Positions 12,231 through 42,179 of a stretch of 64,000 bases of DNA are shown here, in pieces; the stretch's first letter is position 1, and every line of letters begins with the position of its first letter. Under the pieces are notes generated by a model. It was not told where the DNA came from. It did no database searches and was given only the letters and a program-made list of their open reading frames with translations. The position numbers and the translations under genes are program-made. The stretch comes from Halomonas binhaiensis (GTDB taxonomy: Bacteria; Pseudomonadota; Gammaproteobacteria; Pseudomonadales; Halomonadaceae), in assembly GCF_008329985.2 (NCBI RefSeq), contig NZ_CP038437.2:1860001-1924000 (forward strand), given 5' to 3'.

Positions 12231-12245
12231 CGGCGGAGTCACGAC

Positions 12246-13751: not shown

Positions 13752-13866
13752 TCGCGGTTGATGCCGTTGAGTAGGGGCATCGTCGAGAGCTGAAGTTGTT
13801 GAGGGTCTGTGCCGACCGAGGGAGATAGCCTGAAGTCGGCCGTCATGGTTGATGAGGTAAGCCGCC

Positions 13867-14355: not shown

Positions 14356-16190
14356 TGCTAGACGAACTGCTGCCGTATTATGAAAAGGAACTTTCGCACC
14401 TGCGCTTTCTGGGCCAGGAGTTCGCGCGTGAGTATCCGAAAGTGGCTGCTCGTCTCCAGCTCGAAGAGGATGGATGTGCCGATCCGCACACCGAACGCCT
14501 GATCGAGGCGTTTGCCTTCCTGTCGGCTCGTGTCCACAAGAAGCTCGATGATGACCTGCCGGAAATCGTCGAGTCCTTTCTTGATGTGTTGTATCCCCAT
14601 TACCTGAGGCCCACGCCTTCGCTGTCGATTGCCCAGTTTGACCTTGGTGATCGGTCGACACTGGATTCACGCTACCGAGTGTCGCGGCATACAGAACTGT
14701 TTTCTCGCGCGGTCGGAGGCACGGCCTGCCGCTTCCGCACCTGCTACGACGTGAGTGTCTGGCCGATCAAGGTGGAACAGGCACGTTTCAACTTGCTGGA
14801 GCGTTCGGCCTTCAATGGACGTGACCGGGACAGCGTTGCGCGTCTGGACCTTGACCTGGCAAGCCTGGCAGGTCAGAGCGTCGGCCCCCTGGGTATTGAT
14901 AGCCTGCGCTTCTTCCTCGATGGGGAAGGGGCCTTGATGCATCCATTGCATGAACTGCTCTTCAATAACCTGTCACGGCTCAGTGTCAGCTTCCATGAAG
15001 GTAGCCAGCGCCGTGAAGTCAATCTGCCTCTCGATGCTATCCAGGCAGTAGGGTTTGGCGTGGATGAAGGGCTTATCGAGTATTCCGAACGTTCCTTCCT
15101 CGGTTATCGCCTGTTGCATGAGTACTTCATCTTCCCGGAGAAATTCATGTTCTTCGATATCCGGGGATTGGAGCGAGTGTTGGCGAGAGTCAAGGGCTCG
15201 GGCTTCCAGCTGCATTTTCATTTTGCGGACTATACCCAGAGTGAGCGCCTGGCACGCCTGGCTCAGAACCTCGGGCGCAATCATTTTCGTCTTGGCTGTA
15301 CCCCAGTGATCAACCTGTTCCAGCAATTGGCGGAGCCGATCAAGCTGACCCACACCCAGCATGAATACCCGGTGGTGGCCGATGTTCGTCATCCCTATGG
15401 GGTGGAAATCCTGTCCATCGACAGCGTCAAGAGGGTCAAGAAAACCGCTGAGCGCGATGTGGTGTCAGTGTGTCACCCATTCTTCGAACCACGTCGCCGG
15501 GATACCCAGCGCGGTGAGAGTTACTGGGTCGCCAGGCGAGTGCCTTCGGAACGCCGCCAGGATAATGGTACCGAGTTGCAACTGCGCCTGGTGGACCGAG
15601 AGCTGACCCGAGTCGATACCGCCAACGATGTGCTCAGTCTCAAGCTGACATGCAGTAACCGGGATCTGCCACAGCAGTTGGGCTTCGGGCAGCCGCAAGG
15701 CGATTTCACCCTGCCTCAGGAACAGGTCGTCAAGACCATTCGTTGCCTGCGCAAGCCGACCACCGCAGTGCGTCCCCCGCTGGGCAAGGGGCTGATATGG
15801 CGCTTGATTTCTCATCTGTCGCTCAATCACCTGTCGCTGGTATCCCGTGGCCGAGAAGCCTTGCTGGAAATCCTCTCGCTGTACAACTATCGCGACACGG
15901 AAGCAGCCCGTCGCCAGATCAATGGCATCGTGTCAATTGACAGCCAGCCAGCCATGACCCGAATCGGGCATCCTCGCCCGGCGTTCGTGCGTGGCCTGGG
16001 CATTACCCTGGAGCTCGACGAGCAGCAGTTCATCGGTAGCGGTATCTATCTATTTGGCATGGTGCTGGACCATTTCTTCGGACAGTACTGCTCCATCAAC
16101 AGTTTTACTCAACTCACCTTGCGTAGCCGCCAGCGTGAGAAGGATGTGGTGACATGGCCGCCCAGAACCGGCTCTCAGCCCCTGGTCTGA
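14355..16190 (+). CDS. tssF: T6SS baseplate protein TssF
   Basis: This 611-aa baseplate wedge component begins with the signature MLDELLPYYEKELSHLRFLGQEFAREYPKVA. It contains the family hallmarks DPHTERLIEAFAFLSARVHKKLDDD, YPHYLRPTPS and FRLGCTPVINLF. With TssG it forms the main baseplate wedge that docks on the TssK trimers. It overlaps tssE by one base and tssG by 37 bases. Confidence 0.97.
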   Translation: MLDELLPYYEKELSHLRFLGQEFAREYPKVAARLQLEEDGCADPHTERLIEAFAFLSARVHKKLDDDLPEIVESFLDVLYPHYLRPTPSLSIAQFDLGDRSTLDSRYRVSRHTELFSRAVGGTACRFRTCYDVSVWPIKVEQARFNLLERSAFNGRDRDSVARLDLDLASLAGQSVGPLGIDSLRFFLDGEGALMHPLHELLFNNLSRLSVSFHEGSQRREVNLPLDAIQAVGFGVDEGLIEYSERSFLGYRLLHEYFIFPEKFMFFDIRGLERVLARVKGSGFQLHFHFADYTQSERLARLAQNLGRNHFRLGCTPVINLFQQLAEPIKLTHTQHEYPVVADVRHPYGVEILSIDSVKRVKKTAERDVVSVCHPFFEPRRRDTQRGESYWVARRVPSERRQDNGTELQLRLVDRELTRVDTANDVLSLKLTCSNRDLPQQLGFGQPQGDFTLPQEQVVKTIRCLRKPTTAVRPPLGKGLIWRLISHLSLNHLSLVSRGREALLEILSLYNYRDTEAARRQINGIVSIDSQPAMTRIGHPRPAFVRGLGITLELDEQQFIGSGIYLFGMVLDHFFGQYCSINSFTQLTLRSRQREKDVVTWPPRTGSQPLV

Positions 16191-17233
16191 TCGATCGAGC
16201 TCGGGCTGAGCCATACCGGTTCGGCTTCTTCCAGCTCGTACGCTTGCTCAGGCTGCATTACAGCCATCAGGGGCGGCTTGACCCTGAGTCACGCCCCCAT
16301 GAGGATCCGCTGCGCTTTCGTACCAAGCTGTCGCTGGAGTTTCCGGCCAGTGAGATCAGTGACCTGACCTTTGAAAGTACCAAGCGTCTGTCACCCCTGG
16401 AGCAGCCACTGACCGAGGTCCAGGTCACCTTCATGGGCCTGATCGGGCCTTCGGGTGTTCTGCCACGGCCTTATACCGAGACGCTGATCGATCGCCACAT
16501 ACAGCTGCGTGACGATGCAGCTCATGCGTTTCTTGATCTGTTCTCACATCGCATGACAGCGCTGTTCTACCAAGCCTGGCAGAAATACCGCTTCTTCATC
16601 GAATACGAGCGCAAGGGTGAGGCTGACTTCGAACGTCAATTGCATGCACTGCTGGGCCTGACGGAGCGCTCCACGGCACTGCTGACTGATCGCCATGCCA
16701 AGGGTGAGGGAGAGGCGAACCTGCCCAGGGAGTTGTTTGGTTACTTTGCCGGTCTGCTCGGGCAACGTCCACGCAACACCCACAACCTGCAGGTGATGCT
16801 GGGCTTCTATTTTGGCGTGTCCTGCCAGGTACGTCCTTTCTCGGGGCGTTGGCTGGATATTCCCGAGCGTGAGCGCACATGCCTGGGCTCGCGCAATGCC
16901 CAGTTGGGGCAGTCGGCCGTGGCAGGCAATCGAGTGTGGGACTACCAGTCCTGTGTACGAATAGCGCTAGGGCCACTTCTCCGGGAGGATTTCCAGCGTT
17001 TTCAGCCAGGTTCTCCTGATTACGCTCAACTGGTGGAACTGATCCGCTTCTATCTCGGTGCTGAGCTGGATTTTGAAATTGAACTTGAACTCGAAGCTCG
17101 TGAAGTACCTGCGGCCCGCCTGGGCGGGAGCGATGGAGTGACGCTTGGTCGCATGGGCTGGCTGGGCAGTCAGGCGCGTACATGCAACGGTCATGCACTT
17201 TTCCAAATCCCCTTTAATGGAGCCACAACGTGA
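16154..17233 (+). CDS. tssG: T6SS baseplate protein TssG
   Basis: This 359-aa baseplate protein has the N-terminal PYRFGFFQLVRLLRLHY motif and the central FMGLIGPSGVLPRPYTE signature. The DLFSHRMTALFYQAWQKYRFFIEYE and LGFYFGVSCQVRPFSGRW segments are also characteristic. It partners TssF in the wedge. Its 5' end lies within the tssF 3' end, and its stop overlaps the GTG start of tssH, so coupling is tight. Confidence 0.97.
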   Translation: MAAQNRLSAPGLIDRARAEPYRFGFFQLVRLLRLHYSHQGRLDPESRPHEDPLRFRTKLSLEFPASEISDLTFESTKRLSPLEQPLTEVQVTFMGLIGPSGVLPRPYTETLIDRHIQLRDDAAHAFLDLFSHRMTALFYQAWQKYRFFIEYERKGEADFERQLHALLGLTERSTALLTDRHAKGEGEANLPRELFGYFAGLLGQRPRNTHNLQVMLGFYFGVSCQVRPFSGRWLDIPERERTCLGSRNAQLGQSAVAGNRVWDYQSCVRIALGPLLREDFQRFQPGSPDYAQLVELIRFYLGAELDFEIELELEAREVPAARLGGSDGVTLGRMGWLGSQARTCNGHALFQIPFNGATT

Positions 17234-19857
17234 GCCTCAAGACACTGTTTGCCAAGCTCAATGATGTCAGCCGCGGTGCCATGGAAGAGGCCGCTGGCCT
17301 GTGTCTGGCTAAACGTCAGTACGAAGTCGATGTCGAGCACCTGCTGCTCAAGCTGCTCGATGCTGATGACAACGATGTGCTGCGCATTGTCCGCCATTAT
17401 GAACTGGCCCTGGATCGGCTCGCCGATCAGCTTGATCAGGCACTGGAATCCTTCAAGACAGGCTGTACCCGCACTCCGGCGCTGTCACCGCATATCACTC
17501 GCCTGATAGAGCGGGCCTGGGTGATTGCTTCCATCGAGCAGGAAGTTTCATGCATTCGCAGCGGGCACCTGATGCTGGCCTTGCTGAGTGATCAGGAGTT
17601 GCGCCGGATTGTAGTGGAAAGTGCTCCTGAGCTGGAGCATCTGGATGCCGACGACCTGCGCCTGAACTTCAATGATCTGCTGTCAGCCAGCCCCGAGCAA
17701 CAGAGTGCTGGCCAGGCGAGCTCCACCACAGCGGGGAAGGAGGGGACAACGCGCCGCGGCGGCAAGACGCCGGCCCTGGATCAGTACACCATCGACCTGA
17801 CGGCCAATGCCCGGGAAAAACGCCTCGACCCCGTACTCGGCCGGGATGCTGAAGTTCGTCAGATGATCGACATTCTTACCCGTCGTCGCCAGAACAACCC
17901 GATTCTCACCGGAGAGGCCGGGGTCGGCAAGACAGCAGTGGTCGAGGCCCTGGCGCTGAAGATAGTTGCCGGAAATGTGCCCGATGCGCTGGCTAACGTC
18001 GAGCTGCGCACTCTGGACCTGGGCTTGCTGCAGGCCGGTGCCGGGGTGAAAGGGGAGTTCGAACAGCGTCTCAAGAATGTCATTGAAGAGGTCAAGCGCA
18101 GCCTGCACCCGATCATCCTGTTCATTGATGAAGCGCATACGCTGATCGGCAGTGGCGGGCAGGCAGGCCAGAACGATGCTGCCAACCTGCTCAAGCCAGC
18201 ACTGGCTCGGGGCGAGCTGCGTACCATCGCTGCCACGACCTGGGCGGAATACAAGAAGTACTTCGAAAAAGACGCCGCGCTGGCACGGCGCTTCCAGGTC
18301 ATCAAGGTCGATGAGCCGACAGAAGAGGTTGCCATTGATATGCTGCGCGGCCTGGCGGGGCGCATGCGTGATCACCATGGTGTGGAAATTCTCGATGATG
18401 CCGTGATCCAGGCAGTGCGCCTGTCCCATCGCTACATCACGGGTCGCCAGTTGCCGGACAAGGCGGTCAGTGTGCTGGATACTGCCTGTGCACGCGTGGC
18501 TCTGGGCCAGGCGGTAGCCCCGGCGGAGTTGGAAGATGCGCGTCAGCGCCTGAGTGACCTCGATGCCGAGCAGGCGGCGTTGTTGCATGAGCAGGAGCGC
18601 GGTGAAGACGGCCACGGCGCTCGCCTTGAAGAACTGGCAACCAAGCGTGCTGAACTGGTCGATACGATCGCCGACCTGGAACTGCGCTGGCAGCAGCAGC
18701 GCGATGGTGTGGCGGCGATTCGTGATGCAGAGAAAGCTCTGAGTGAGGCAGAAGACGAGGCGGCCCGTGAAGTCGCCCGCGAGAACCTGCTGAAGGCGCG
18801 TCATGCACTCGAGGATATCGTCGGTGACAGCCCCATGGTGCATCCCTGTGTCGATGGCAATGCCATTGGTTCAGTAGTGGCTGCCTGGACGGGGATTCCG
18901 CTGGGCAAGATGCAGCGTGACGAGATCGACACAGTACGGCGTCTGCCGGAGCTGCTGGGAGAGCGCGTCATTGGCCAGGACCATGCCCTGGTCGAGATCG
19001 GCAAGCGCATCAGCCTTTCCAGGGCCAAGCTCGAGGACCCCAACAAGCCCATCGGCGTCTTCTTGCTGCTCGGCCCCAGTGGTGTCGGCAAGACCGAGAG
19101 CGCCTTGGCGCTGGCCGACACTCTGTACGGCGGTGAACGTAATCTGATCACCATCAACATGTCCGAATACCAGGAAGCACATACCGTTTCCTCGCTCAAG
19201 GGCTCGCCGCCTGGTTATGTCGGCTATGGCGAAGGTGGTGTGCTGACCGAGGCTGTCCGGCGCAAACCCTACAGCGTAGTGCTGCTGGATGAGGTCGAGA
19301 AGGCACATCCAGATGTGCTTGAGCTGTTCTTTCAAGTGTTTGACAAGGGCGTCATGGAAGATGGCGAAGGACGCGAGATCGATTTTCGCAACTGCGTCAT
19401 CCTGCTGACTTCCAATGTTGGTACAGACTGGATCATGGAGCGTTGCCTGGGGGCCGAGTCTCTACCTGAGGCAGAGTCACTGGTAGAGGAAATGCGTGAT
19501 TCACTCAATGCCATCTTCAAGCCGGCCTTCCTCGGACGTCTCAAGATCGTGCCCTATTACCCTGTGCAGGGTGATGTGCTCACGCGAATCGTCAACCTCA
19601 AGCTGTCTCGCCTGCAACAGCGCTTCTCGCATAACCATGGGGCTCAACTCAGCTTCGAGGAATGTGTGGCGGAGCATATTGCCGAACGCTGCACCCAGAC
19701 CGATAGCGGCGCCCGCAGTATCGACCACCTGTTGACCGGCTCCTTGATGCCGCAACTGGCTGAACGGGTATTGGAGCGCATGGCGGAAGATACACCTATC
19801 GATAGCATCGAAGTGGGTGTCGACGAGCATAGCGACTTCACCTATCGCCTGATGTAG
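17230..19857 (+). CDS. tssH: T6SS sheath-recycling AAA+ ATPase TssH/ClpV
   Basis: This 875-aa Clp/Hsp100 ATPase disassembles contracted TssBC sheath. An N-terminal Clp_N-like domain (residues 1-150) is followed by nucleotide domain 1 with Walker A GEAGVGKT at residue 228 and Walker B ILFIDEAHTLIGSGG. A coiled-coil middle domain spans about 430-530, and domain 2 has Walker A GPSGVGKT at about 615. TWAEYKKYFEKD is typical of ClpV rather than ClpB. The start is GTG, overlapping tssG. Confidence 0.97.
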   Translation: MSLKTLFAKLNDVSRGAMEEAAGLCLAKRQYEVDVEHLLLKLLDADDNDVLRIVRHYELALDRLADQLDQALESFKTGCTRTPALSPHITRLIERAWVIASIEQEVSCIRSGHLMLALLSDQELRRIVVESAPELEHLDADDLRLNFNDLLSASPEQQSAGQASSTTAGKEGTTRRGGKTPALDQYTIDLTANAREKRLDPVLGRDAEVRQMIDILTRRRQNNPILTGEAGVGKTAVVEALALKIVAGNVPDALANVELRTLDLGLLQAGAGVKGEFEQRLKNVIEEVKRSLHPIILFIDEAHTLIGSGGQAGQNDAANLLKPALARGELRTIAATTWAEYKKYFEKDAALARRFQVIKVDEPTEEVAIDMLRGLAGRMRDHHGVEILDDAVIQAVRLSHRYITGRQLPDKAVSVLDTACARVALGQAVAPAELEDARQRLSDLDAEQAALLHEQERGEDGHGARLEELATKRAELVDTIADLELRWQQQRDGVAAIRDAEKALSEAEDEAAREVARENLLKARHALEDIVGDSPMVHPCVDGNAIGSVVAAWTGIPLGKMQRDEIDTVRRLPELLGERVIGQDHALVEIGKRISLSRAKLEDPNKPIGVFLLLGPSGVGKTESALALADTLYGGERNLITINMSEYQEAHTVSSLKGSPPGYVGYGEGGVLTEAVRRKPYSVVLLDEVEKAHPDVLELFFQVFDKGVMEDGEGREIDFRNCVILLTSNVGTDWIMERCLGAESLPEAESLVEEMRDSLNAIFKPAFLGRLKIVPYYPVQGDVLTRIVNLKLSRLQQRFSHNHGAQLSFEECVAEHIAERCTQTDSGARSIDHLLTGSLMPQLAERVLERMAEDTPIDSIEVGVDEHSDFTYRLM

Positions 19858-19867: not shown

Positions 19868-20485
19868 ATGACATCACGCAGGGAATCTTCAGCATTCATT
19901 CGCCATAAGGCCTGTATTCGCCATAGGGCTTGGCCACTAATCGTTGGGGGATTGGTGGTCACGGGCCTGCTCAGTGGTTGCGGTGTAGGGAGCCGTATCG
20001 GCAACCAGATGGACGGCACGGTCGGGGATGTGCTGTTCGGCAAGAACGAGCGTGTCATTGTCACGCTGGACGCCGACGAAAAGCTCAACCCGGATGCCGA
20101 GGGCAATCCGCTTTCCGTTGTCGTGCGTATCTATCAGCTTGACTCTTTGACGGCCTTCAACGCGGCTTCGGCAGACGAACTCTGGCGCAATGGCAAGGAC
20201 AGTCTGGGGGAGTCGCTGCTGGCCGAGCGTGAAACCGTCATGTTGCCAGGGAAACAGGTCACGGATAGCGCCCCAATGAATCCAGGCACCAAGTATGTCG
20301 GCGTGGCGGCTTTTTTCCGCCAGGTGCCGGACCAACGCTGGCGCCTGGTATTCAACGCTGCCGAGATGCGCAAGGACGGCATTCTGACATCGCCGGATGG
20401 GGTGGCCCTGCATCTGGCAAATGATTACATCGAACCTGCGGACGATGACAGCCTGGAGTTGCTCGTCGCGGATAACGACAGCTGA
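19868..20485 (+). CDS. tssJ: T6SS outer-membrane lipoprotein TssJ
   Basis: This 205-aa lipoprotein of the trans-envelope complex has a long basic N-region and then a hydrophobic stretch ending in the lipobox LLSGC. The mature domain has the transthyretin-like features VRIYQLDSLTAFNAAS and GTKYVGVAAFFRQVPDQRWR typical of TssJ. It anchors TssM to the outer membrane. The N-region contains an imperfect repeat, IRHKAC then IRHRAW, that lengthens the signal peptide; a downstream start is not obvious. Confidence 0.95.
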   Translation: MTSRRESSAFIRHKACIRHRAWPLIVGGLVVTGLLSGCGVGSRIGNQMDGTVGDVLFGKNERVIVTLDADEKLNPDAEGNPLSVVVRIYQLDSLTAFNAASADELWRNGKDSLGESLLAERETVMLPGKQVTDSAPMNPGTKYVGVAAFFRQVPDQRWRLVFNAAEMRKDGILTSPDGVALHLANDYIEPADDDSLELLVADNDS

Positions 20486-20531
20486 TGATGCTCTCGTCAC
20501 AAGCGGTGAGCGACCAGGAAGGAAGGGATCA

Positions 20532-21875
20532 GTGAGCAAGCATAACCGTGTCATGTGGTCGGAAGGCATGTTCCTTCAGCCGCAACACTTTCAGTATCAG
20601 GACGAGTACCACCAACACCAGCTCGGCGAAGTCAGTGCGCGAGGGGGCGCCTTCAATTGGGGGGTGCAGGAGCTGGTCGTGGATGAAGACGCTCTGGCTC
20701 AGGGACGTTTGCAACTGACCCGGCTCAAGCTGGTATTCCCCGATGGCACCCTGGTCGATGCTCCACAGCATGACCCGTTGCCCCCGGCGCGGGACCTTGG
20801 CGAGCTGAATGGCACAGCGGAGTGCAAGATCTACGCGGCTCTGCGTCTGGTCGAGCTGCATTCGCCCAATGTGGTGGACGAGCAGCACCGGCGTGGCAAT
20901 AACCGCCGTTTTCGACAGCGTTTCGAGCATGTGCCGGACCTGCTTGAGGGTGAAGTGGAAAACGAGCTTTCCCTGCTGGAGCTGAATGTCCTGCTGCTGC
21001 TGGAAGGGGACGACCTGGATGGCACCAGTCATTGCCCGTTGGTGGTGCTCAAGCGCAACGCTGCAGGTGGTTTTTCCGTAGAACGGGACTATGTGCCACC
21101 GTGCCTGCACCTGAGCAGTAATGATACTCTGCTGTCCCTGGCTCAGCGTCTGATCGGTGTGCTGCAGGCCAAGAACGAGGCACTTTCGAGCCGTCGGCGA
21201 GAACGTGCGGACCAGGTCGCCGAGTTCGGTTCCAGTGACGTCACACTGTTCTGGCTGTTGTACACGGTGAATCGGGCTTACCCCGATCTGGCGCACCTGC
21301 TCCAGCATCCGCGACTGCACCCTGAGCAGTTGTTCCGCTTCCTCAACGACCTGGTCGCCAGCCTGATGACTTTCTCCATGAGTCATCGGCTCAGCGATCT
21401 GCCCATGTATCGCCATGAAGATCCGGCAGCTTCGCTCTTCCTGCTGGACAGCATGGCTCGGGAACTGCTCGATACGGTCGTTCCCAATCAGTACATCCCC
21501 ATTGCCCTGGAGCAGACCAAGCCTTCCTATTATGTCGGTCGCTTGAACGATCCACGCCTGGCTGATGCGGACTTCTATGTCTGCGTACATGCGGACATGC
21601 CGGGCGCCAAGCTGATCGAGCTGGTACCCCGTGCCTTCAAGGTCGGCTCTCCGGAGGACATCGAAGTCGTGGTCAACAGTGCCATGCCGGGCGGCACCCT
21701 GGTGCATGCCAGCCGTCTGCCGGTGGCCATCCCCGTGCGTCTGGACAACCATTATTTCGCGCTCGAACCGCGTGGGCGGATGTACGAGCGAATGATGGCA
21801 GCGCAGGCCATCTCCTTCTACGTCCCAGGCGGTTTTACCAATCTCAAGATTGAACTCATGGCGGTGCTGAAATGA
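20532..21875 (+). CDS. tssK: T6SS baseplate protein TssK
   Basis: This 447-aa trimeric linker joins the baseplate to the membrane complex. The N-terminal signature VMWSEGMFLQPQHFQYQDEY is diagnostic. GTG at 20532 is chosen as start because GGAAGGG lies just upstream and the N-terminus (MSKHNRVMWSEG) then matches the family; an upstream ATG would add 45 non-homologous residues inside tssJ. The C-terminal part has SYYVGRLNDPRLADADFYVCVHADMP. The stop overlaps the tssL start. Confidence 0.97.
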   Translation: MSKHNRVMWSEGMFLQPQHFQYQDEYHQHQLGEVSARGGAFNWGVQELVVDEDALAQGRLQLTRLKLVFPDGTLVDAPQHDPLPPARDLGELNGTAECKIYAALRLVELHSPNVVDEQHRRGNNRRFRQRFEHVPDLLEGEVENELSLLELNVLLLLEGDDLDGTSHCPLVVLKRNAAGGFSVERDYVPPCLHLSSNDTLLSLAQRLIGVLQAKNEALSSRRRERADQVAEFGSSDVTLFWLLYTVNRAYPDLAHLLQHPRLHPEQLFRFLNDLVASLMTFSMSHRLSDLPMYRHEDPAASLFLLDSMARELLDTVVPNQYIPIALEQTKPSYYVGRLNDPRLADADFYVCVHADMPGAKLIELVPRAFKVGSPEDIEVVVNSAMPGGTLVHASRLPVAIPVRLDNHYFALEPRGRMYERMMAAQAISFYVPGGFTNLKIELMAVLK

Positions 21876-22603
21876 ACCAGTACGTGGCGAACCAAGACCA
21901 TACCCAGGAGCAGGATGCGACGGATAGTACCCAGGCAACGCTGCGTACCCTGACTCAGGACTTCTTTTCCATGGTGCTCATGGTCCGGCGTGGCAGTGAA
22001 GCACAAGGCGTCGACGAGTTTCTCGAGCGGGTCGAGAACTACTTCCAGGACCTGGAAAAAAGAGCATTGGCGGCCGGCTATACCCTGGAGCAGTTCCGTG
22101 ATGCCCAGTATGCGCTGTGTGCCTTCCTCGATGAGAGTGTGCTTGGCGCGGTAGAAAGCAATATTCGCCACCACATCGAACTGCACCCATTTCAGTACAA
22201 GTATTTTGGCGTGCACCTGGCAGGCGAAGGTTTCTTCGAGCGCCTCGAGGCCCTGCGCAGCGACGTCAAGGGCAATCTGGATGTGCTGGAGGTCTACCAT
22301 CTGTGCCTGGCGCTGGGGTTCGAGGGCAAGTTCCGTCTCGAGCACCGCGACCAACTGCGTTATATCGCCAATACCCTGGGACAGGACATTGCACGCTATC
22401 GCAAGGTGCCTCAGGAACTGGCTCCTGACTGGAAGCTGCCTGACCAGGTAGGGCAACTGCTGCGCTACGAAGTCCCGGTATGGGTCTATCTCGTGCTGAT
22501 TGCCCTGCTGTGTGGTGTGGTCTACCTGATTCTCGGCGGCATTCTCGACGCTCGTGTCGATGCGTTGGTCGAGTCTCTGCAATCTCTGTTCGATGGCTCC
22601 TAG
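21872..22603 (+). CDS. tssL: T6SS inner-membrane protein TssL (DotU-like)
   Basis: This 243-aa DotU-type protein has a cytoplasmic domain with FSMVLMVRRGS, YALCAFLDESVLGA and FGVHLAGEGFFERLEAL, and a single C-terminal membrane helix (VPVWVYLVLIALLCGVVYLIL). It lacks any peptidoglycan-binding OmpA extension. In this cluster the OmpA-like domain is instead carried by a separate TssM-like protein. It binds TssM and recruits the baseplate. It overlaps tssK by four bases. Confidence 0.97.
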   Translation: MNQYVANQDHTQEQDATDSTQATLRTLTQDFFSMVLMVRRGSEAQGVDEFLERVENYFQDLEKRALAAGYTLEQFRDAQYALCAFLDESVLGAVESNIRHHIELHPFQYKYFGVHLAGEGFFERLEALRSDVKGNLDVLEVYHLCLALGFEGKFRLEHRDQLRYIANTLGQDIARYRKVPQELAPDWKLPDQVGQLLRYEVPVWVYLVLIALLCGVVYLILGGILDARVDALVESLQSLFDGS

Positions 22604-22612: not shown

Positions 22613-25600
22613 ATGAGGCGATTACTAGGAGTTCTGAAGAGTTTCTGGCTGGTATCGATCGTGCTGTGGCTGATCGGTGTCGGATTGTGCGTGTGGTGGA
22701 TTCCACGACTCGGTGGCGGTCCCCAGCGTCTGGCCATTGCCGTGGCCCTGCTCACAGCTGTCTGGCTGCTGGCCGTGGTGCTGCGCAAGTATCGCAAGGT
22801 GCGTGCCGACAGGGGCATCGAAGAGCTGGTCACGCTCGAAGTCAACCGGGAGGCTGCCAGTGCGGCCTCGCAGTCGGGAGACTACGAGGTCCTGCGCGAA
22901 CGCCTCAAGGCTGCGCTGGGCATGCTCAAGGCGCGCGGTGGCAGTAAAAGCAGTTTGAGCGAACTGCCCTGGTTCCTTGTGCTCGGTCACTCGGCCTCGG
23001 GCAAGACATCACTGCTGAGCCGTTCCGGCCTCAATACCAGTGTGGCGGGGATTGGCGCGGAAACCGGCACTCAGTATTGCGATTGGTATTTCGGCAATGA
23101 CGCGGTATTGATTGATACCGCCGGGCGTTATATTGCCGAGGAACAGCCTGCCCAAGAGTTTGCCGAGTTCCTCAAGCTGCTGGCCAAGCGACGCAAGCGT
23201 AACCCGATCAATGGCCTGGTGGTGGTCGTCGATCTGCCTGCGTTACTGCGTGGTTCTCGGGAGGATAGCTACGCCCTGGCTCAGCAATTGATCGAGCGTA
23301 TCGACGAATACCACGCGGCGATGGATGCGGCTCCGCCAGTCTATCTGTGTTTCAGCAAGGCCGACCTGGTGCCGGGGTTTGTCGAGGCTTTCTCACGCCT
23401 GGACAGTGATGCACGCCAGCGCCCCTGGGGGATGTCTTTCTCTCTGGCGGAAATTCGCGGCAAGGGTATGCGCCAGGCTTTCTCCGAGCGCTTCGAGTCT
23501 TTGATAGCTTCCTTGCGTGCCCATGTGGATCGTCGGGTCATCGAGAGTGGGCTGGAGGCCAACAGCGAACTGTTGCGTTTCCCGGACTACGTGAATGAGA
23601 TCAGAAATCCTCTGATGGATTTCCTCGAACCGTTCGACCTGCGTCATAACCCGGACAGCGCACCGCTGGCTCGTGGCCTGTATTTCACCAGTGCATTGCA
23701 GCGTGGTGATGTCATCGCGCCGGTCTTCAATCAAGCAGCCAGCAAGATGTTTGCCTTGAACAGAACCACGGAGACGGCATCACAGGCGCGGGGTGAACGC
23801 AGTTACTTCATCCAGGGGCTGTTCCGCGATGTGGTGATTGCTGATCGCAACCTGGTGGAACATCACTCACGTAATGGCCGTCGACGTTCTCTCCATCTCT
23901 GGCTGGTGGGGGCAGGGGTGTTGGCAGGATTGGGTGTTATCGGTCTGATGGCCCATGCCTTCTGGAATAACCGTGCAGGGCTGATGAGCTTCGAGGAACA
24001 GCTGGCAAGTGTGGAGCAGGCTGACGATGCCACCAAGCTCGAGACGCTGCAGGGAGAGCTGGCGCGCTTGCACCAGCAGCAGCGCGAGGGAGTGGCGCTA
24101 TGGGAGGATGCCGGCCTCGATAGTGGTGACAAGCTCCGTCCGGATCTGGAAGACACCTATTTCTCTGCTCTGAAAGGCCAGGTTCTGGCGCCCATCGCGG
24201 CCAATCTGGGACAGCAACTGGCCGAGGTCGGGGCGCTGGCGGATTCCCTGGGGCTCGACGTTGAACTGCCATCTGCGGCTGCGGATAACCTGGATCAGCA
24301 GGATTACCTGGCCAATGCCGCAGGCCAGGGAAGCGAGATGCTGGACCGTACAGGCGAACGTCTGCAGGACCGCCTGACTCAGCGTCCGACCCTGGGCAGC
24401 GTGCCGCGCTCTCCTGGTGAGCTGGCCAGTCGCCTGCGTGGTGAAGCCGACTATCGCCTGCGTGGCAGTGTCAATGATGCCTATTGGAGCGCGCGTTCCG
24501 ATGGACGTGAAGCGCTGCGCGAAGGTGCGCGCAATGCCTGGGAGAATGCCCAGAACGGTGGACTGGAAGAACAGTTGGCAGAAAGCGAAGCCCTGTCGGG
24601 GATTGGTCCGTCATTCTCGGCGGCTGCGCTCAGCGAGCTTGAACCCAGTCAGGTTTCCGATCTAATCGATGCCTACGACGCATTGAAGCTTTATCTGGTG
24701 CTCACTGATCCTGAAGCTCATCCAGAAGTGGACTTCGTCAAGGAAGCGTTGCCGCGAGCCTGGCAACGCCTGGCCGAGCATGACAGTCAAGTGCCCCAGG
24801 GCGACCAGCTGATCAGTGACAACGTGGCGTTGTATGCGGCTTACCTGGAAGAGGGCAAGGCACCGGCCCTGGACAGGGACGAGCGTCTGGTGGCTCAGGC
24901 ACGTGCCAATCTCAAGGCCTTTCTGGTGCAGGCATCGCCAGCGGACCGGGAGTATCTGCGCCTGCGTCTGGCAGCGGAGAAACAGTTCCCCGCATTGACA
25001 CTGTCCGACATCCTGCCCAAGGCCGATCTGCCGTTGATGTATTCCGGAGAAGCGGTACCTGCCTTCTTCACCCAACGGGTGTGGCAGGAATTCGTCCAGC
25101 CTGAACTGGCGAAGACATTGGCCTCAGACCTGAATGTGGAGCGTGACTGGGTGCTGGAAGGGGACTCCGAACTGGATGCCGTGCAAAGCAAGGCTCAGTT
25201 TGCTCGGGCAGTGCTGGCACGCTACAAGCGTGACTACATCTATGCCTGGGAACGCTTCCTGGCCGGTGCTGGGGTACGTCGTTTCGAAGGGCTGGAAGCG
25301 TCGCGCAAGAATCTCACCCAATTGAGCGACTATCAGCGCTCTCCGCTCAAGATCCTGCTACAGGTCGTGGATGCCAACACGCGTTGGGACAATCCTGATG
25401 CCGAGCAGCGCCAGGCAAGCGGAGACAGTGAGGAAAAGGCGCCGCAGGACAGCACTTCTCCAGGCTTCTGGAAGCGCACCATGAACTGGGTGAGCGGATC
25501 AGACCAGATGGCTGAACAGGCGCTGGCACAAAGCAGTGACATGCCTTCGATTCATGATGGCATCCTGGCACGCCATTTCGAGCCTGTGGGTCAGTTGTTC

Positions 25601-26560
25601 CGCACCGATGCCGGTGCTGAGGACGATGCTACGCACATGGATCGCTATCTGTTGCTGCTGCGTCAGTTCAAGGTGCGTCTGGATAGCCTGGAACGCGGCG
25701 ATGTCGGCAAGCGCACCAAGCAGTTGGTGAGTGATGTGATTGGTGGCCGTCCCAACGAGATCACCGAGCTGCACAACTATGTGGCAGCCAATATCGACAC
25801 TTCGCGTGACGAACTGGTGCAGTCCGTGCAGCGTCTGTTCCGCGACCCGGTGGACTTTGCCGTGGCCAGCCTCGATGGCCCGATATCCGGCCAGCTTGCT
25901 GGTGCCTGGGGTGAACAGATCTCGAGGCCCTGGAACAAGATGGTGGGAGGACGTTATCCCGTCAGCAATTCCAGCAATGAGGCCTCGGTTCGCGACTTGC
26001 GTCACTTCGTCGATCCGAATTCCGGCCTGCTGGCCAGCTTCGATGAGAACGAGGTAGGCAACCTGGCGGAAGCCAACCGCAATGGCGAGCCTCTGGTCGA
26101 CCCGTTGATCACTGCCACCATCGCCCAGGGTACCGGCGTAGGGGAAGTGCTCGATAGCCTGGCGGATGTGGAGAATGGATTCGAGATCATGATCCAACCA
26201 TCTCCCAATCTCACTGCCATCACTCTGTCGCTGGACGGGCAACAACTGGAATACCGCAATGGACCTCAGTCCTGGCAGCGTTTCACCTGGCCAGGCGATG
26301 GACGCCAGGCGGGGGCACGGATGGATGTGATGACCTTTGGCGGTACTCGGGTCAAGGTATTCGATTTTCCCTCCCGCTGGGGGCTGCTGCGCATGGTGGA
26401 CTCCGCCGATGTGGCCAACCTCGATGACGTGCGTCAGCGTCTGACCTGGTACACCAGTGTGGGGCCTGTGAGCATCACGGTGCGTAACTTCGGTGGCGTC
26501 AAACTGACTGATCTCGACAAGGTCCGGCGCCTGCGCATTCCTGCGCTGGGAGCTCGATAG
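22613..26560 (+). CDS. tssM: T6SS inner-membrane protein TssM (IcmF-like), full length
   Basis: This 1315-aa core component spans inner membrane and periplasm. It has two N-terminal helices (about 8-60), a cytoplasmic NTPase-like domain with Walker A GHSASGKT at residues 125-132, a third helix near 427-450 (LWLVGAGVLAGLGVIGLMAHAFW), and a long periplasmic helical region. The C-terminal beta domain (TAITLSLDGQQLEYRNGPQSWQRFTWPG) contacts TssJ. Length and domain order are complete, so this copy alone should be able to form the TssJLM complex. Confidence 0.96.
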   Translation: MRRLLGVLKSFWLVSIVLWLIGVGLCVWWIPRLGGGPQRLAIAVALLTAVWLLAVVLRKYRKVRADRGIEELVTLEVNREAASAASQSGDYEVLRERLKAALGMLKARGGSKSSLSELPWFLVLGHSASGKTSLLSRSGLNTSVAGIGAETGTQYCDWYFGNDAVLIDTAGRYIAEEQPAQEFAEFLKLLAKRRKRNPINGLVVVVDLPALLRGSREDSYALAQQLIERIDEYHAAMDAAPPVYLCFSKADLVPGFVEAFSRLDSDARQRPWGMSFSLAEIRGKGMRQAFSERFESLIASLRAHVDRRVIESGLEANSELLRFPDYVNEIRNPLMDFLEPFDLRHNPDSAPLARGLYFTSALQRGDVIAPVFNQAASKMFALNRTTETASQARGERSYFIQGLFRDVVIADRNLVEHHSRNGRRRSLHLWLVGAGVLAGLGVIGLMAHAFWNNRAGLMSFEEQLASVEQADDATKLETLQGELARLHQQQREGVALWEDAGLDSGDKLRPDLEDTYFSALKGQVLAPIAANLGQQLAEVGALADSLGLDVELPSAAADNLDQQDYLANAAGQGSEMLDRTGERLQDRLTQRPTLGSVPRSPGELASRLRGEADYRLRGSVNDAYWSARSDGREALREGARNAWENAQNGGLEEQLAESEALSGIGPSFSAAALSELEPSQVSDLIDAYDALKLYLVLTDPEAHPEVDFVKEALPRAWQRLAEHDSQVPQGDQLISDNVALYAAYLEEGKAPALDRDERLVAQARANLKAFLVQASPADREYLRLRLAAEKQFPALTLSDILPKADLPLMYSGEAVPAFFTQRVWQEFVQPELAKTLASDLNVERDWVLEGDSELDAVQSKAQFARAVLARYKRDYIYAWERFLAGAGVRRFEGLEASRKNLTQLSDYQRSPLKILLQVVDANTRWDNPDAEQRQASGDSEEKAPQDSTSPGFWKRTMNWVSGSDQMAEQALAQSSDMPSIHDGILARHFEPVGQLFRTDAGAEDDATHMDRYLLLLRQFKVRLDSLERGDVGKRTKQLVSDVIGGRPNEITELHNYVAANIDTSRDELVQSVQRLFRDPVDFAVASLDGPISGQLAGAWGEQISRPWNKMVGGRYPVSNSSNEASVRDLRHFVDPNSGLLASFDENEVGNLAEANRNGEPLVDPLITATIAQGTGVGEVLDSLADVENGFEIMIQPSPNLTAITLSLDGQQLEYRNGPQSWQRFTWPGDGRQAGARMDVMTFGGTRVKVFDFPSRWGLLRMVDSADVANLDDVRQRLTWYTSVGPVSITVRNFGGVKLTDLDKVRRLRIPALGAR

Positions 26561-26565: not shown

Positions 26566-26628
26566 ATGGATTCGATAAGGATGGAAGAGCAGAACATGGC
26601 AATGGCAGAGCGCAAGGAGGCTGCTTGA
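26566..26628 (+). CDS. Possible 20-codon coupled leader ORF before tagF
   Basis: A 20-codon reading frame (MDSIRMEEQNMAMAERKEAA) fills the tssM-tagF gap and ends TGATG, with its stop overlapping the tagF start. The upstream GGGAG is poorly spaced. It may only be chance, or a translational coupling device. Confidence 0.25.
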   Translation: MDSIRMEEQNMAMAERKEAA

Positions 26629-27566
26629 TGATCGGGTATTTCGGCAAGGTGCCGGGAAGCGCCGACTTCGTAGCACATAACGCTGCCTACAAGGATGTGC
26701 GTGAGCTAGATAGCTGGCTGCAGGATGCACTAGCCTGGATGGCCGAGTGCGATGCCGGCTGGCATGAGCGCTTCGATGCCCTGCCGATGTGTTTCTTCCA
26801 TTTCCGCGCAAGCAATGGCCACTGGCTTCTGGGCGGAATGCAGAGTTCGCGAGATGCCAGTGGCCGGCGCTATCCCTTGCTGGTCTTCCAGCGCCTGGGC
26901 GTCGCACCCGGAGTGGAAGGCAGTGTGGGAGTGCACACCCTGAGCGAGACCTTTTGTGGTCAGTTGCGAGGGCTTTTGCAGCGCCTGATTCATGGTGATG
27001 CCGGCGTGCAGGAACTGCATCGCTCCATGGAAGAGCTACGCGAACTGGGCGAGGGCGACCTGAAATTGCAGCAACGCCTGTTGCAGCGCTTTCTCGAGGA
27101 TGTGCGTTACAGCGATCTGTCGCGGGCACTGAACCCCGGCTTTCCGGAGTTCGTTGCCAGTGCCTTTGCCCTGCGCATGCAAGGTCTGCGGCAACGCCTG
27201 CTGGCGGGTGAGGCGTTGCAGGCAGTCATGCCATTGCCCGCCGAACGTGCGCTCAAGCGCCCGGCCGCGGATCTGTGGCTGCACTGGCTGGATAGAAATG
27301 GCCCAAGGGCCAAGGCCAGCCTGCTGGTGGATGATTTCATGCGTCCTCATCTATGGCGCTTTGCTCGTACCGATAGAGAGGCCTTTCGACTGTTGGCGGG
27401 AGTGGCGCCGCAGGAGACACGCTTTGATGTCCTGGAGTCCTTCGAGCATTTCGATCCGCAGTGGGCGTCTGTGGAGCCGCCTTCAGCGGAGTTGGACATG
27501 GGTACTTATATAACGCGGTTTCCCGGTGAGGAGAACGCTATGCGAATGGATGGACCCGCGTTGTGA
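26628..27566 (+). CDS. tagF: T6SS accessory/regulator TagF
   Basis: This 312-aa protein begins with the family signature MIGYFGKVPGSADFV and contains RYPLLVFQRLG and the DLWLHWLD segment. TagF represses T6SS assembly after translation, in several species by binding Fha or acting beside the PpkA/PppA phosphorylation pathway. AAGGAGG lies seven bases upstream of ATG 26628. No Fha, PpkA or PppA gene is present in this window, so TagF must act differently or with partners elsewhere. It overlaps the next gene by one base. Confidence 0.9.
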   Translation: MIGYFGKVPGSADFVAHNAAYKDVRELDSWLQDALAWMAECDAGWHERFDALPMCFFHFRASNGHWLLGGMQSSRDASGRRYPLLVFQRLGVAPGVEGSVGVHTLSETFCGQLRGLLQRLIHGDAGVQELHRSMEELRELGEGDLKLQQRLLQRFLEDVRYSDLSRALNPGFPEFVASAFALRMQGLRQRLLAGEALQAVMPLPAERALKRPAADLWLHWLDRNGPRAKASLLVDDFMRPHLWRFARTDREAFRLLAGVAPQETRFDVLESFEHFDPQWASVEPPSAELDMGTYITRFPGEENAMRMDGPAL

Positions 27567-30031
27567 TGAACCGATTGAAATATTACTTCGTGAAATATCG
27601 TCCCTATGTATTGGGCGTGGCCTTCTTCCTGCTGATCTTCGTGATCTGGGGTTTGGGGGCGCTGATGGGCTTCTCCTCGCTGGATAGCCTGCTGGTGGGT
27701 ATCGTGGTCTTCCTGGTGGTGTCGGCCTTGTATCTGCTGCTGCTCTATCGAGGTGTAGGCGACAAGAAGGACGATGTAGAGTCCCTGCTGATCCAGAATG
27801 CCGACGATGCGGTGCTGGGAGCCGCCCCGGAGGATCGCGAAGAGGTCAGCCTGTTGCGTGAGCGTCTGCTCAATGCCCTGGAGAGAATGAAGAAGGGGCA
27901 GGGTGGCAAAGGGCGCAAGCGTGACCTGTTGTATCGCCTGCCTTGGTACCTGGTCATTGGTCAGCCCGCGGTAGGCAAGAGCACGTTGGTCTACCGCTCC
28001 GGCCTGGATTTTCCATTCGCCGACCGTGAAAGTGCCCGGGTTGCCGGTGTCGGTGGTACCCGTCATTGCGACTGGTTCTTCAGCAGCGAAGCCGTGTTGC
28101 TGGATACCGCTGGTCGCTATATCAGTGATGAGGAAGAAGCCGGCAAGTGGCGGGCTTTCCTTGATCTGCTCAAGCGGTATCGTCCACGCCGCCCACTCAA
28201 TGGCCTGATCGTGGCCGTGAGCGCCGATGAGTTGATCGACAGTTCTGCCAGTCAGCGTGATGTACTGGCTCGCCGCCTGCGCGAGCGCATTCAGGAGACT
28301 CACGAGCTGCTGGGTACGGTACTGCCCATCTATCTGGTCTTCACCAAGAGTGACCTGATTCCTGGCTTCCGCCAGTTCCATGAGCAACTGGACCCAGCCC
28401 AGCGTGAAGAAGTGCTGGGAATGTCCTTCCCTCATCAGGACTTTGCCAATGCGGACTGGCGCCAGCGTTTCTCCACGGCGCTCAAGCGCATGGTGGTGCG
28501 TTGCCAGGCCATCGGCACGCAACGCTTGATCGAAGGTGATATCCAGCATACCCGTGCTGAACCTGCCGCATTGGAATTCCCGCTGGAGCTGCGTGCTCTG
28601 TCGCCATTGCTATCGGACTTCGTCGGCGCATTGCTGCAGTCGAACCCCTATCAGTCATCACCGCTGTTGCGTGGTTTCTATTTCACCAGTGCGCTGTCCG
28701 ATGGTCAGCCGGCCCTGGGCGAACATGCGCAGAACGTCGAGCGTCGCTTCGCACTTTCCGGAGCCCGTCCTGCCAGTGCCAACCGGGATGGCAAGAGCCT
28801 GTTCGTGAAAGGGCTGTTCTCCCAGGTCATCCTGCCCGACCAGCACCTGGTCGGCCTGTATGCTGGCCCTAATGGCGCGCGTCGACGTCAGTTGCGTTGG
28901 TGCTGGGCGGCTGGTGCGGCGGCATTGGCGCTCTGTATTGCCTGGGGCGTGTCCTTCTTCCACAACGCCGACGAGCTCAGTGCCATTGACGCAACGCTGG
29001 CGCAGGCCAAGGCATCGGATACCGACCATACAGCGTATACCCAGTGGGAGACACTGGACGCCCTTCGTGGTGTGGCCCAGACCTATAGCCAACGTCATGA
29101 ACAGGGGGTTCCCTGGTCCATGGGCTTTGGTCTCTATCAGGGAGATGAAGTGGAGCCAGTCATCCGTGACACCTACTTCACGCGCCTGAAACGCGACATG
29201 CTCGATCCGGTGGCGGATAACCTCAATCAGTCTCTGTTCGTGCTTCCGACCATACCGGTGTATCGCTCCGGTGAAGGCCAGCGCATGACGGCCATCGATA
29301 TCGAAAGTGTCGAACCCAATGCCTTGCCGCCGGACAATTCGCCCCAGGCGCTGGCCGGGTTCGGCAATGCCACGCTGGGTACCTATCTGGAGCTGTCACG
29401 CACGCCGCGGGACAAGATCGATGCTGACTTGCTGCGGGCCCATCTGCCGGATTACTGGTATCCGTCCATCACCCAGGCCCGTGATGGTCAGCGCGACCCG
29501 CGTGATCTCGGTTATGCCAGCCGTCAGATCGACTTCTATGCCGAGCAGGTGCATGCCGATGATGTGCCTCGCATCGATGACAACGCCTTCCTCATCTCGT
29601 CGAGCCGCAATTACATCGACGGACTGCTGGATCGTTCTCTGCGCACCGTGGAAACCATCACCCTGGAATCCGACACCTTGTTCGCCTTCGGCCGTGCGGA
29701 CTTTGCCGGCCTGCAGGGTGAAGGGCAGCGTCAGCTCAATCGCATTGCAGAGCGGCTCAGCAATACCCCCAATGTGGGGCGCATCACCATTACCGGGCAT
29801 GCCGACCAGATTGGTTCGGCATCGGCCAACAAGCGTCTCTCGCTGGAGCGGGCGCAAACGATACGGACGTACTTGATCGGCAAGGGCCTCGCGCCTGAGC
29901 TGGTCGAAGCCGTCGGGGCTGGCAATGAACGCCCCCTGGTGCAGTGCGACGGCAGCATGAGTCGTACCGATAGGATTCGCTGTCTAGCACCGAATCGCAG
30001 GGTGGAGATTGAGGTTCGTGCACTCAACTGA
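27566..30031 (+). CDS. TssM-like N-terminal half fused to OmpA-like peptidoglycan-binding domain
   Basis: This 821-aa hybrid has the membrane-cytoplasmic half of TssM: two N-terminal helices (about 12-62), an NTPase-like domain with Walker A GQPAVGKS at 132-139, LLDTAGRYISDEEE, FTKSDLIPGF, and a third helix near 442-464. A periplasmic stretch of only about 240 residues leads into a C-terminal OmpA-like domain (about 703-815) with LFAFGRADF, TITGHADQIGSASANKRLSLERA and NRRVEIEV. The long periplasmic arm and TssJ-binding beta domain of TssM are absent. It overlaps tagF and likely anchors the T6SS membrane complex to peptidoglycan, taking the place of an OmpA-bearing TssL or TagL. Domain calls are confident; the role is inferred. 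Confidence 0.88.
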   Translation: MNRLKYYFVKYRPYVLGVAFFLLIFVIWGLGALMGFSSLDSLLVGIVVFLVVSALYLLLLYRGVGDKKDDVESLLIQNADDAVLGAAPEDREEVSLLRERLLNALERMKKGQGGKGRKRDLLYRLPWYLVIGQPAVGKSTLVYRSGLDFPFADRESARVAGVGGTRHCDWFFSSEAVLLDTAGRYISDEEEAGKWRAFLDLLKRYRPRRPLNGLIVAVSADELIDSSASQRDVLARRLRERIQETHELLGTVLPIYLVFTKSDLIPGFRQFHEQLDPAQREEVLGMSFPHQDFANADWRQRFSTALKRMVVRCQAIGTQRLIEGDIQHTRAEPAALEFPLELRALSPLLSDFVGALLQSNPYQSSPLLRGFYFTSALSDGQPALGEHAQNVERRFALSGARPASANRDGKSLFVKGLFSQVILPDQHLVGLYAGPNGARRRQLRWCWAAGAAALALCIAWGVSFFHNADELSAIDATLAQAKASDTDHTAYTQWETLDALRGVAQTYSQRHEQGVPWSMGFGLYQGDEVEPVIRDTYFTRLKRDMLDPVADNLNQSLFVLPTIPVYRSGEGQRMTAIDIESVEPNALPPDNSPQALAGFGNATLGTYLELSRTPRDKIDADLLRAHLPDYWYPSITQARDGQRDPRDLGYASRQIDFYAEQVHADDVPRIDDNAFLISSSRNYIDGLLDRSLRTVETITLESDTLFAFGRADFAGLQGEGQRQLNRIAERLSNTPNVGRITITGHADQIGSASANKRLSLERAQTIRTYLIGKGLAPELVEAVGAGNERPLVQCDGSMSRTDRIRCLAPNRRVEIEVRALN

Positions 30032-30235: not shown

Positions 30236-30781
30236 ATGGCATTTGATGCATATCTGAAAATCGACGGTATCCCGGGCGAAAGTCTGGACGCCAACCACAA
30301 GGACTGGATCGAGCTGCTGAGCTTCGAGTTTGGCGCCAGCCAGGCCACTTCCGCGACTGCCAGCTCTGCTGGTGGTGCTTCTGCCGAGCGCGTCAACGTC
30401 AGTGACTTCGCGATTTCGAAGTTCATCGACAAGGCATCTCCTAAGCTGTTCGAGGCTTGCTGCCGCGGCCAGCACATCAAGGAGATCACGCTGCATGTCA
30501 ACCGCGCTGGCGGTGATCAGGTGCGCTATCTCGAAGTGAAACTGGAAGAAGTCATCGTGTCCTCCACTGAAATGGAAGGCATGAGCAGCTTCTCCCAGAA
30601 TGCTGCTGGTGGTGCTACCGATTCTGTGCACGATTCGCGTCATGATCTGCCTTCCGAGGCAATCAAGTTCAACTTCGCGCGTATCAAGGTCACCTACACC
30701 CAGCAGAAGCGTCAGGACGGCCAAGGTGGTGGCAACATCACTGGTGGCTGGGACCGTACTCGCAACCGCGTTTACTCCTGA
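30236..30781 (+). CDS. hcp: T6SS tube protein Hcp (TssD)
   Basis: This 181-aa member of the longer Hcp class begins MAFDAYLKIDGIPGES, with the conserved DWIELLSFEFGASQ and FAISKFIDKASPKLFEACCRG segments. It ends in IKFNFARIKVTYTQQK plus a Gly-rich tail and WDRTRNRVYS. Hcp hexamers stack inside the TssBC sheath and are secreted. It is flanked by its own upstream region and a downstream hairpin, unlike the tightly packed neighbours. Confidence 0.97.
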   Translation: MAFDAYLKIDGIPGESLDANHKDWIELLSFEFGASQATSATASSAGGASAERVNVSDFAISKFIDKASPKLFEACCRGQHIKEITLHVNRAGGDQVRYLEVKLEEVIVSSTEMEGMSSFSQNAAGGATDSVHDSRHDLPSEAIKFNFARIKVTYTQQKRQDGQGGGNITGGWDRTRNRVYS

Positions 30782-30823: not shown

Positions 30824-31002
30824 GCTCATGCAGTGTTTACAGGCTTGGCGAATACCTGCAACAGGCTTGGATAGCTAACGCTTGAATAGTGATGCTTTCA
30901 ACAGTTGACGCCTTGAATGACCGGCGTTCTGGATCCAGGGCTGTCGCAGGTGTTTTTCAGCGCTAAACGGCAATGGCCGAGAGTCAGTGAAGAGGAATGA
31001 AC

Positions 31003-32106
31003 ATGGCCGATGAATGGGATCGCGAAGCACTGCTGGCGCCGATCGGTGACAACGGTGCCGGGGAAGATCTGAGCTTTTCGCTGCTGATGGATCAGATCAA
31101 GGAGGCGCGGCGTGCCGATCCGACTTACCTCAGTCAAGGTGAGTGGCAGGCCGATCTCAAGAAGTCCGACTGGAACGAGGTCATCGCGCTGTCCACCGAT
31201 GGACTTGCCTACCAGAGCAAGGACCTGGTGCTGGCCGGATGGTTGTGCGAAGGGCTTTCTCATCGTCATCACTTCGTTGGCATGGCCTACGGCCTGGGTG
31301 TCGTCACGGCGCTGTGCGAACGTTACTGGGAGTCGCTCTTTCCGACCCTGGAGGATGGCGAAGAAGAGCGAGTGGGACGGCTGATGTGGCTGGATAACAC
31401 ACTGGCCGGCATGGTGGGTGATATCCCGTTGCTTGAAGGTCAGGGCTATGGCCTGAATCGCTATGAGGAGTCCCGGCAGGTCGAGAACCTGGCACGCAAT
31501 GATGTCGATGCCATGGATACGGCCTTGTCGGAAGGCAAGATCAATGCCGAGATCTTTCAGCGCAGCGTGGTGCTCACCGAGACCGATTTCTTCAAGCAGC
31601 GCCATGATGAGATCCAGCGCTGTCAGCAGGCACTGGAGGCGCTCGATCAGGCCCTGACTGAACACCTCGGTGACCAGACCCCGGCCTTTACCCAACTGAC
31701 GGTTGTCCTTGGCGACTGTACCCGGTTGATTGAACGTGTGCTCGGCGAACGTGGCGTCAGTCTTGGCGGCGAGTCAGGAGAAGGCAATGAGAGCGCGGCA
31801 TCCAGTGTCGAAACCGCGGTAGAGCATCCGCGGGTGGCTCCCGCGGCACCGGCCAAGCAAGCGTCAGCCGGCGCGGCCTTGCGCACCGTACCGCAAAGTC
31901 GCGAAGAAGCCTTCGAAATGCTCAATGGTGTCGCCCAGTTCTTCAAGGGCAGCGAACCTCACAGCCCGGTGCCATACCTGGTCGAGCGAGCCGTTCGCTG
32001 GGGTCGCATGCCGCTGGAAGAATGGCTGCGTGATGTGATTCGTGAAGACCACATCATCGACAGTATCCGCGACACTCTGGGCACGCAGCGGCGGGATGAG
32101 GACTAA
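31003..32106 (+). CDS. tssA: T6SS cap/assembly protein TssA
   Basis: This 367-aa protein has the ImpA N-terminal domain (LLAPIGDNGAGEDLSFSLLMDQIKEARRADP, then WNEVIALSTDGLAYQSKDLVLAGWL). An Ala/Glu-rich linker lies around 255-290, and the C-terminal VAQFFKGSEPHSPVPYLVERAVRWG motif is followed by the LEEWLRDVI region. TssA primes tube-sheath polymerisation or caps the distal end. ATG 31003 has GAGGA six bases upstream and is preferred to ATG 30997. Confidence 0.94.
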   Translation: MADEWDREALLAPIGDNGAGEDLSFSLLMDQIKEARRADPTYLSQGEWQADLKKSDWNEVIALSTDGLAYQSKDLVLAGWLCEGLSHRHHFVGMAYGLGVVTALCERYWESLFPTLEDGEEERVGRLMWLDNTLAGMVGDIPLLEGQGYGLNRYEESRQVENLARNDVDAMDTALSEGKINAEIFQRSVVLTETDFFKQRHDEIQRCQQALEALDQALTEHLGDQTPAFTQLTVVLGDCTRLIERVLGERGVSLGGESGEGNESAASSVETAVEHPRVAPAAPAKQASAGAALRTVPQSREEAFEMLNGVAQFFKGSEPHSPVPYLVERAVRWGRMPLEEWLRDVIREDHIIDSIRDTLGTQRRDED

Positions 32107-41086: not shown

Positions 41087-41110
41087 TACTCGCTCTAAAG
41101 TCTTTATCTG

Positions 41111-41154: not shown

Positions 41155-41186
41155 GATTGTATTGTTCTGGCAGGGTAGACGAGAAA

Positions 41187-42080: not shown

Positions 42081-42104
42081 TACTCGCTATAAAGTCTTTG
42101 TCTG

Positions 42105-42147: not shown

Positions 42148-42179
42148 GATTGTATTCTTCTGGCAGGGTAGACGAGAAA

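Follow-up and report, generated by a model that had tools for sequence, protein, structure and literature searches.

A tagP gene that joins a TssM-type N-terminal part to an OmpA domain in the K1-like type VI secretion system of Halomonas binhaiensis

According to the available text of PMC9993120, the structural operon of the K1 type VI secretion system (T6SS) in Pseudomonas putida consists of 15 genes, namely 12 core genes together with tagF1, tagP1 and tagB1. TagP1 of P. putida KT2440 is described in the accessible part of PMC5363822 as a TssM derivative that contains a pfam00691 domain in its C-terminal periplasmic part. The name TagP is credited to Aschtgen et al. 2010 by the papers that cite it, and TssM-like proteins with peptidoglycan-binding domains are mentioned as TagL/TagP in an excerpt of PMC5813230. 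According to the accessible part of PMC11348943, the name was reused in 2024 for a PAAR protein in Acinetobacter. Here, we describe a stretch of 64,000 nucleotides from Halomonas binhaiensis (contig NZ_CP038437.2, positions 1,860,001 to 1,924,000, forward strand), hereafter called the window, in which the gene located at 27566..30031 on the plus strand is tagP, part of a T6SS that resembles K1 of P. putida; this kind of protein is already known and named. The window contains the identical 15-gene set as K1, all on one strand in the order tagB-tssB-tssC-tssE-tssF-tssG-clpV-tssJ-tssK-tssL-tssM-tagF-tagP-hcp-tssA, but in a Halomonas relative rather than in P. putida. The gap between tagP and hcp is 204 bases, as compared to 119 bases between tagP1 and hcp1 in K1, and the window TagP is 57% identical to a P. 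putida homolog that is not KT2440's own sequence.

The tagP open reading frame (ORF) spans 27563-30031 and opens with a GTG codon, while an ATG codon at 27566, which shares one base with the stop codon of tagF, gives a protein of 821 amino acids. The Pfam residue numbers refer to the frame of 822 amino acids and are one higher than in the 821-residue protein. Pfam identifies IcmF-related_N (PF14331) at 190-450 (E 5.1e-76, 255.8 bits), IcmF-related (PF06761) at 497-686 (E 7.6e-16), of which only profile positions 3-152 of 308 are aligned, and OmpA (pfam00691) at 707-798 (E 1.9e-15), all of which exceed their curated cut-offs. The NCBIfam TssM model TIGR03348 covers residues 19-558 with 458.5 bits (cut-off 388.15), and several NCBIfam OmpA-type models cover approximately 696-820, each below its own cut-off. 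Hydropathy indicates two N-terminal hydrophobic segments (residues 9-27 and 42-60; 27590..27745, plus strand) and a third segment at residues 447-465 (28904..28960, plus strand). The nucleoside triphosphatase (NTPase) motifs are complete (27959..28354, plus strand), with Walker A at residue 132, DTAG at 180 and TKSD at 260. The proximal periplasmic domain of TssM is retained at residues 466-690 (28961..29635, plus strand), as indicated by the partial PF06761 match and a profile alignment. The OmpA/Pal/MotB peptidoglycan-binding domain occupies residues 696-821 (29651..30028, plus strand) and includes D747, R762 and the cysteine pair C794/C806. D747 and R762 are invariant in 16/16 aligned rows, and, by analogy with OmpA, they are presumably peptidoglycan contacts.

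A sequence-only reading of the window had proposed that the gene joins a TssM-type half to an OmpA domain and lies next to the gene of a complete TssM. This is confirmed by Pfam, NCBIfam, hydropathy and the motifs, including the OmpA profile match within residues 700-820 on which the proposal had been made to depend. The same reading held that the periplasmic arm is replaced by a short linker, which does not agree with the roughly 225 proximal periplasmic TssM residues that remain, with the OmpA domain placed directly after them.

The protein combines the features that characterize TagP: a TssM-like N-terminal part, a C-terminal pfam00691 domain and a T6SS cluster with tagF and a full-length tssM. 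It lacks the distal periplasmic arm with a C-terminal IcmF_C that defines TssM, and Pfam does not match PF06744 or PF21070 in TagP, while the neighboring gene at 22613-26560 matches both. Neither is DotU matched by Pfam, and TagP is thereby distinct from the long form of TssL, in which DotU is followed by OmpA. Since it consists of IcmF and OmpA, it does not fit TagN either, which is a small exported OmpA protein without IcmF.

The three-domain Pfam architecture was present in all of the best 120 of 2528 homologs (E <= 0.001). Full-length TagP was identified in 28 of the 151 genomes from the family of the window, and the named Halomonas relatives show 76-78% identity to the window TagP. A sample of the order contained TagP in 1/56 genomes, which is the window's own genome, and a sample of the class in 2/369, represented by the window's own genome and one other (G404), in whose family it was found in 1/23 genomes. 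TagP was found in 0/17, 0/60 and 0/8 genomes of three other sampled families. The sample of the Pseudomonas family contained TagP in 3/198 genomes, all previously found and one of them the center of the sample. TagP is a patchy yet established protein family, with members in the families of the window, of Pseudomonas and of G404. The 39 TagP rows represent 37 distinct loci (L005 and L085 are the same place, as are L011 and L099); counts of locus content and gene order originally included these doubles. One row (L004) shares 99% identity with the window, and another (L014) was dropped because it matched the OmpA part only. The Walker A, DTAG and TKSD patterns occur in the same order and with the same spacing at all 37 distinct loci, and the D..R wall-binding motif is likewise present in 37/37, so both ends of the protein look selected. 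A position-limited Walker A pattern was found in 38/39 rows; the miss is probably L008, which has a long open frame and passes the pattern of order and spacing.

Each of the 28 TagP genomes in the family contains one further TssM match, located upstream. With the doubles removed, the exact order tssJ-tssK-tssL-tssM-tagF-tagP is found in 35/37 distinct loci, and tssM is located beside tagP in all 36 distinct intact loci, including one with split frames. In this exception (L097, genome G191), the order is the same and tagP is intact, and the frames of tssL, tssM and tagF are split, which may reflect either a sequencing error or decay. The other exception (L012) is a P. cerasi remnant in which the tagP match starts at residue 52 and is followed by hcp, tssA and vgrG. 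No further T6SS gene of the window was found in this 22-kb stretch, and no other TssM match was obtained in the genome at E 1e-40. According to the available text of PMC9993120, the K1 structural operon, including tagP1, is a single transcriptional unit in reverse transcription PCR. For the P. putida relative, this answers the concern that the gene might not be expressed with its cluster. A single operon in all loci is ruled out, as tagB is located on the opposite strand to tagP in 23 of 29 loci (28 from the family and G404), and the cluster therefore consists of two divergent blocks there, tagB-tssB and tssJ-tagP. The window and five other loci are co-directional.

To place the TssM-type part, we inferred a phylogeny of the N-terminal part (70 rows), which included TagP and the resident full-length TssM from 16 chosen loci and 10 of the 40 TssM rows from clusters that lack TagP; rows were kept only if their trimmed length fell within 400-620. 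TagP was recovered as a single clade (100/99), as was the resident TssM (100/100), and the branching of the 16 TagP rows and the 15 resident rows is largely mirrored, as judged by eye. The sister of TagP was the resident TssM in this tree (87/59) and the TssM of tagN-type clusters in a second tree (77), in which constraining TagP with the resident TssM was not rejected (approximately unbiased test, p-AU 0.277). The second tree left out six long rows, all rows from TagP-less clusters, seven more tagN-type rows, and the TagP and resident rows of all but ten loci. The tree program issued a warning that long branches meet, and the sister group, which differs between the two trees, may be either of these. 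TagP and the resident TssM are approximately 33% identical over the shared part, and a recent copying of TagP from the resident TssM is unsupported, as both are deep clades.

The full-length TssM proteins that score highest with TagP come from clusters with the order tssM-tagF-OmpA gene, in 17/17 of those fetched among 21 matches listed for the three other sampled families; the four outside the fetched set are G633, G626, G224 and the second match of G367. The profile alignment of TagP with the TssM of the tagN-type clusters is unbroken to residue 690, beyond which it runs into the OmpA domain and is not meaningful, while the alignment with the resident TssM reaches 561. A cysteine pair in the OmpA domain is present in 37/37 distinct TagP loci versus 0/17 TagN-type proteins when searched with one pattern in the same stretch, and in 34/37 versus 0/17 with a stricter pattern. 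The profile of the TagP domain scores best with OmpA porins (110 bits), as compared to 31 and 22 bits for the OmpA sequences of TagL from enteroaggregative Escherichia coli (EAEC) and the long form of TssL, neither of which is known to carry an IcmF domain. Judged by these sequence features, the domain belongs to the OmpA-porin type rather than the TagN type. The cysteine pair and the score with OmpA porins leave the idea that TagP arose by fusion of a tssM with the TagN-type gene at the same place unsupported as regards the OmpA part.

We consider it rather likely that TagP in the K1-like T6SS is an inner-membrane protein that joins the TssJLM complex and binds peptidoglycan, holding the machine to the wall. 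The protein would insert in the inner membrane like TssM and associate with the complex by way of its TssM-like part, and its OmpA domain would bind peptidoglycan to keep the machine in place as it fires. The arm that reaches TssJ and the outer membrane is absent from TagP and would still come from the full-length TssM. The conservation of the NTPase motifs speaks against TagP being a tether alone. The domain content suggests that TagP is probably a wall anchor, and the gene is the only one with an OmpA domain in the window and one of seven in the genome.

OmpA is absent from every TssL of the TagP loci, and the sequence-only reading had suggested that anchoring moved from TssL onto the TssM paralog. 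For comparison, 40 T6SS loci (L109-L148) were collected from the 39 genomes in the window's family that contain TssM and lack TagP. TssL was seen in 39/40 of these, always short and without OmpA, in open frames of 265-328 amino acids. Since a short TssL is equally the rule in the T6SS without TagP, it does not point to TagP, and the suggested transfer is unsupported; the shortness of TssL was likewise rejected as specific evidence for a cause of TagP. What stands is that TssM and a short TssL are accompanied by another protein of TssM type whose end can be expected to bind peptidoglycan, which matches the published idea of TagP. The observation was thus sound and its interpretation half right. 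A separate feature of the TagP-less clusters is that their TssM proteins contain the Walker A pattern in 40/40 and DTAG in 0/40, and the four inspected read DPDG at this site.

Several points weigh against TagP as a wall anchor of the membrane complex. Most sampled genomes lack TagP, and the 40 TagP-less loci yielded no OmpA gene within the fetched stretches of 8.6-18.6 kb, outside which an anchor encoded farther away could fall; cluster-borne anchoring is therefore no general need. According to a review, wall-binding proteins of this kind are not core components and seem unnecessary for assembly of the membrane complex, although some T6SS, for example in EAEC, need them to work (PMC10433429). 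A literature search, with subscription journals mostly outside its reach, found no experiment on the function of TagP in the papers examined. The structure model of the full-length protein is middling, with a mean predicted local distance difference test (pLDDT) score of 65.9 and a predicted template modeling (pTM) score of 0.38. The structure rows from VIA-align cover mainly residues 691-821 and are hence uninformative on the rest, with no TssM row among the matches listed.

A special case of the anchor reading is that TssM and TagP form a mixed ring in the inner membrane, in which one reaches the outer membrane and the other clamps the wall. TagP would then take some of the places of TssM, fewer arms would reach TssJ, and the TagP:TssM ratio would set the geometry of the complex. 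Such a complex is plausible from the sequences, as TagP retains in full the half of TssM that carries the membrane segments and the NTPase domain, and Citrobacter rodentium requires a short and a full TssM at a set ratio (PMC4256274, available part). However, the low identity and the separate deep clades imply that the places need not be interchangeable, and we regard this arrangement as a tentative option. The position of tagF, between tssM and the OmpA-bearing gene in 35/37 TagP loci and in 17/17 fetched tagN-type loci, is what would be seen if TagP were chiefly a regulatory target, with TagF controlling assembly via the NTPase domain of TagP or TssM. Moreover, tagF was detected in 0/40 of the TagP-less loci in the family, and K1 is said, in the accessible text of PMC9993120, to contain tagF1 as a solo regulator gene. 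This is gene neighborhood only, however, and the reach of the hidden Markov model in the TagP-less loci is unproved since tssJ was also found in 0/40 there, which makes a mainly regulatory role unlikely.

It could also be argued from the absence of TagP in most sampled genomes, and from the remnant in P. cerasi, that TagP is a functionless TssM duplicate in decay. Yet the motifs are intact at every distinct locus, TagP forms one clade across three families and is well conserved among the named Halomonas relatives, and the only TagP that has no tssM is a truncated one next to an operon that has been lost, so this explanation is highly improbable.

The remaining genes of the cluster are all located on the plus strand. 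The first gene of the row is a candidate for tagB (tagX) at 10896..11645, which has no Pfam or NCBIfam match. Its relatives adjoin tssB in 28/28 loci of the family and in 6/6 Pseudomonas stretches. According to an excerpt of PMC5363822, tagB, formerly tagX, is a hallmark gene of the group 4B T6SS; the renaming is given in PMC7896307. Profile matches identify tssB, tssC, tssE, tssF, tssG and tssH (clpV) at 11700..19857. Pfam and NCBIfam identify the lipoprotein gene tssJ (19868..20485), tssK (20397..21875), tagF (26625..27566), which is placed between tssM and tagP, hcp (tssD; 30236..30781) and tssA (30997..32106). The short TssL (21872..22603) has 243 amino acids and matches only DotU in Pfam, with no OmpA extension. 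The full-length TssM (22613..26560) has 1315 amino acids and contains IcmF-related_N, IcmF-related, IcmF_helical and IcmF_C. Over its residues 686-1295, it matches the solved TssM of EAEC, and it also matches the C-terminal TssM fragments 4y7m and 4y7l, the former of which shows the contact with TssJ. An ORF of 389 amino acids between tssA and vgrG (32110-33279) has no Pfam match; in NCBIfam, it weakly matches a model for 3-oxoacyl-ACP synthase at a score far below the cut-off. The region located 3' of vgrG (35876-43539) encodes a DUF4123 adaptor followed by an effector gene of the VasX_N / BTH_I2691 family (36832-40203), three tandem Sel1-repeat genes (40166-43073), which may encode immunity proteins, and a PAAR gene.

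TagP is a named candidate for the wall anchor of T6SSs whose TssL has no wall-binding domain. To the papers compared, the present analysis adds the fusion point near residue 690, the OmpA-porin type of the domain, the presence of a TssM partner at all intact loci seen, and lists of the genomes that have TagP and of those that lack it. If TagP and TssM do form a mixed complex, the E. coli structure, in which TssM is the only protein of its type, would represent just one design among several, and the architecture of the membrane complex would vary more than that structure suggests.

TssM (IcmF) and TagP share the three hydrophobic segments, the NTPase domain and the proximal periplasmic domain, but TssM continues into the distal arm and IcmF_C, whereas TagP lacks both and has an OmpA domain instead. 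The T6SS of Acinetobacter encodes a separate OmpA protein, TagN, in the order TssM, TagF, TagN (PMC6838775). The genes for TagN-type proteins and TagP are thus located at the same site, 3' of tagF, where OmpA genes occur in all of the fetched loci with a high-scoring TssM. Unlike TagP, the TagN-type proteins contain neither a TssM part nor the cysteine pair. In C. rodentium, as described in the available part of PMC4256274, both TssM1[1-807] and full-length TssM1 are needed, with the short form in roughly 3-4-fold excess over the full one, and function is lost when this ratio is inverted. As in the window, a short and a full TssM are present in one system, but there they are produced from one gene by transcriptional slippage, and the short form is truncated, with no added wall-binding domain described in that part of the paper. 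By analogy, C. rodentium is a precedent for two lengths of TssM working in one machine.

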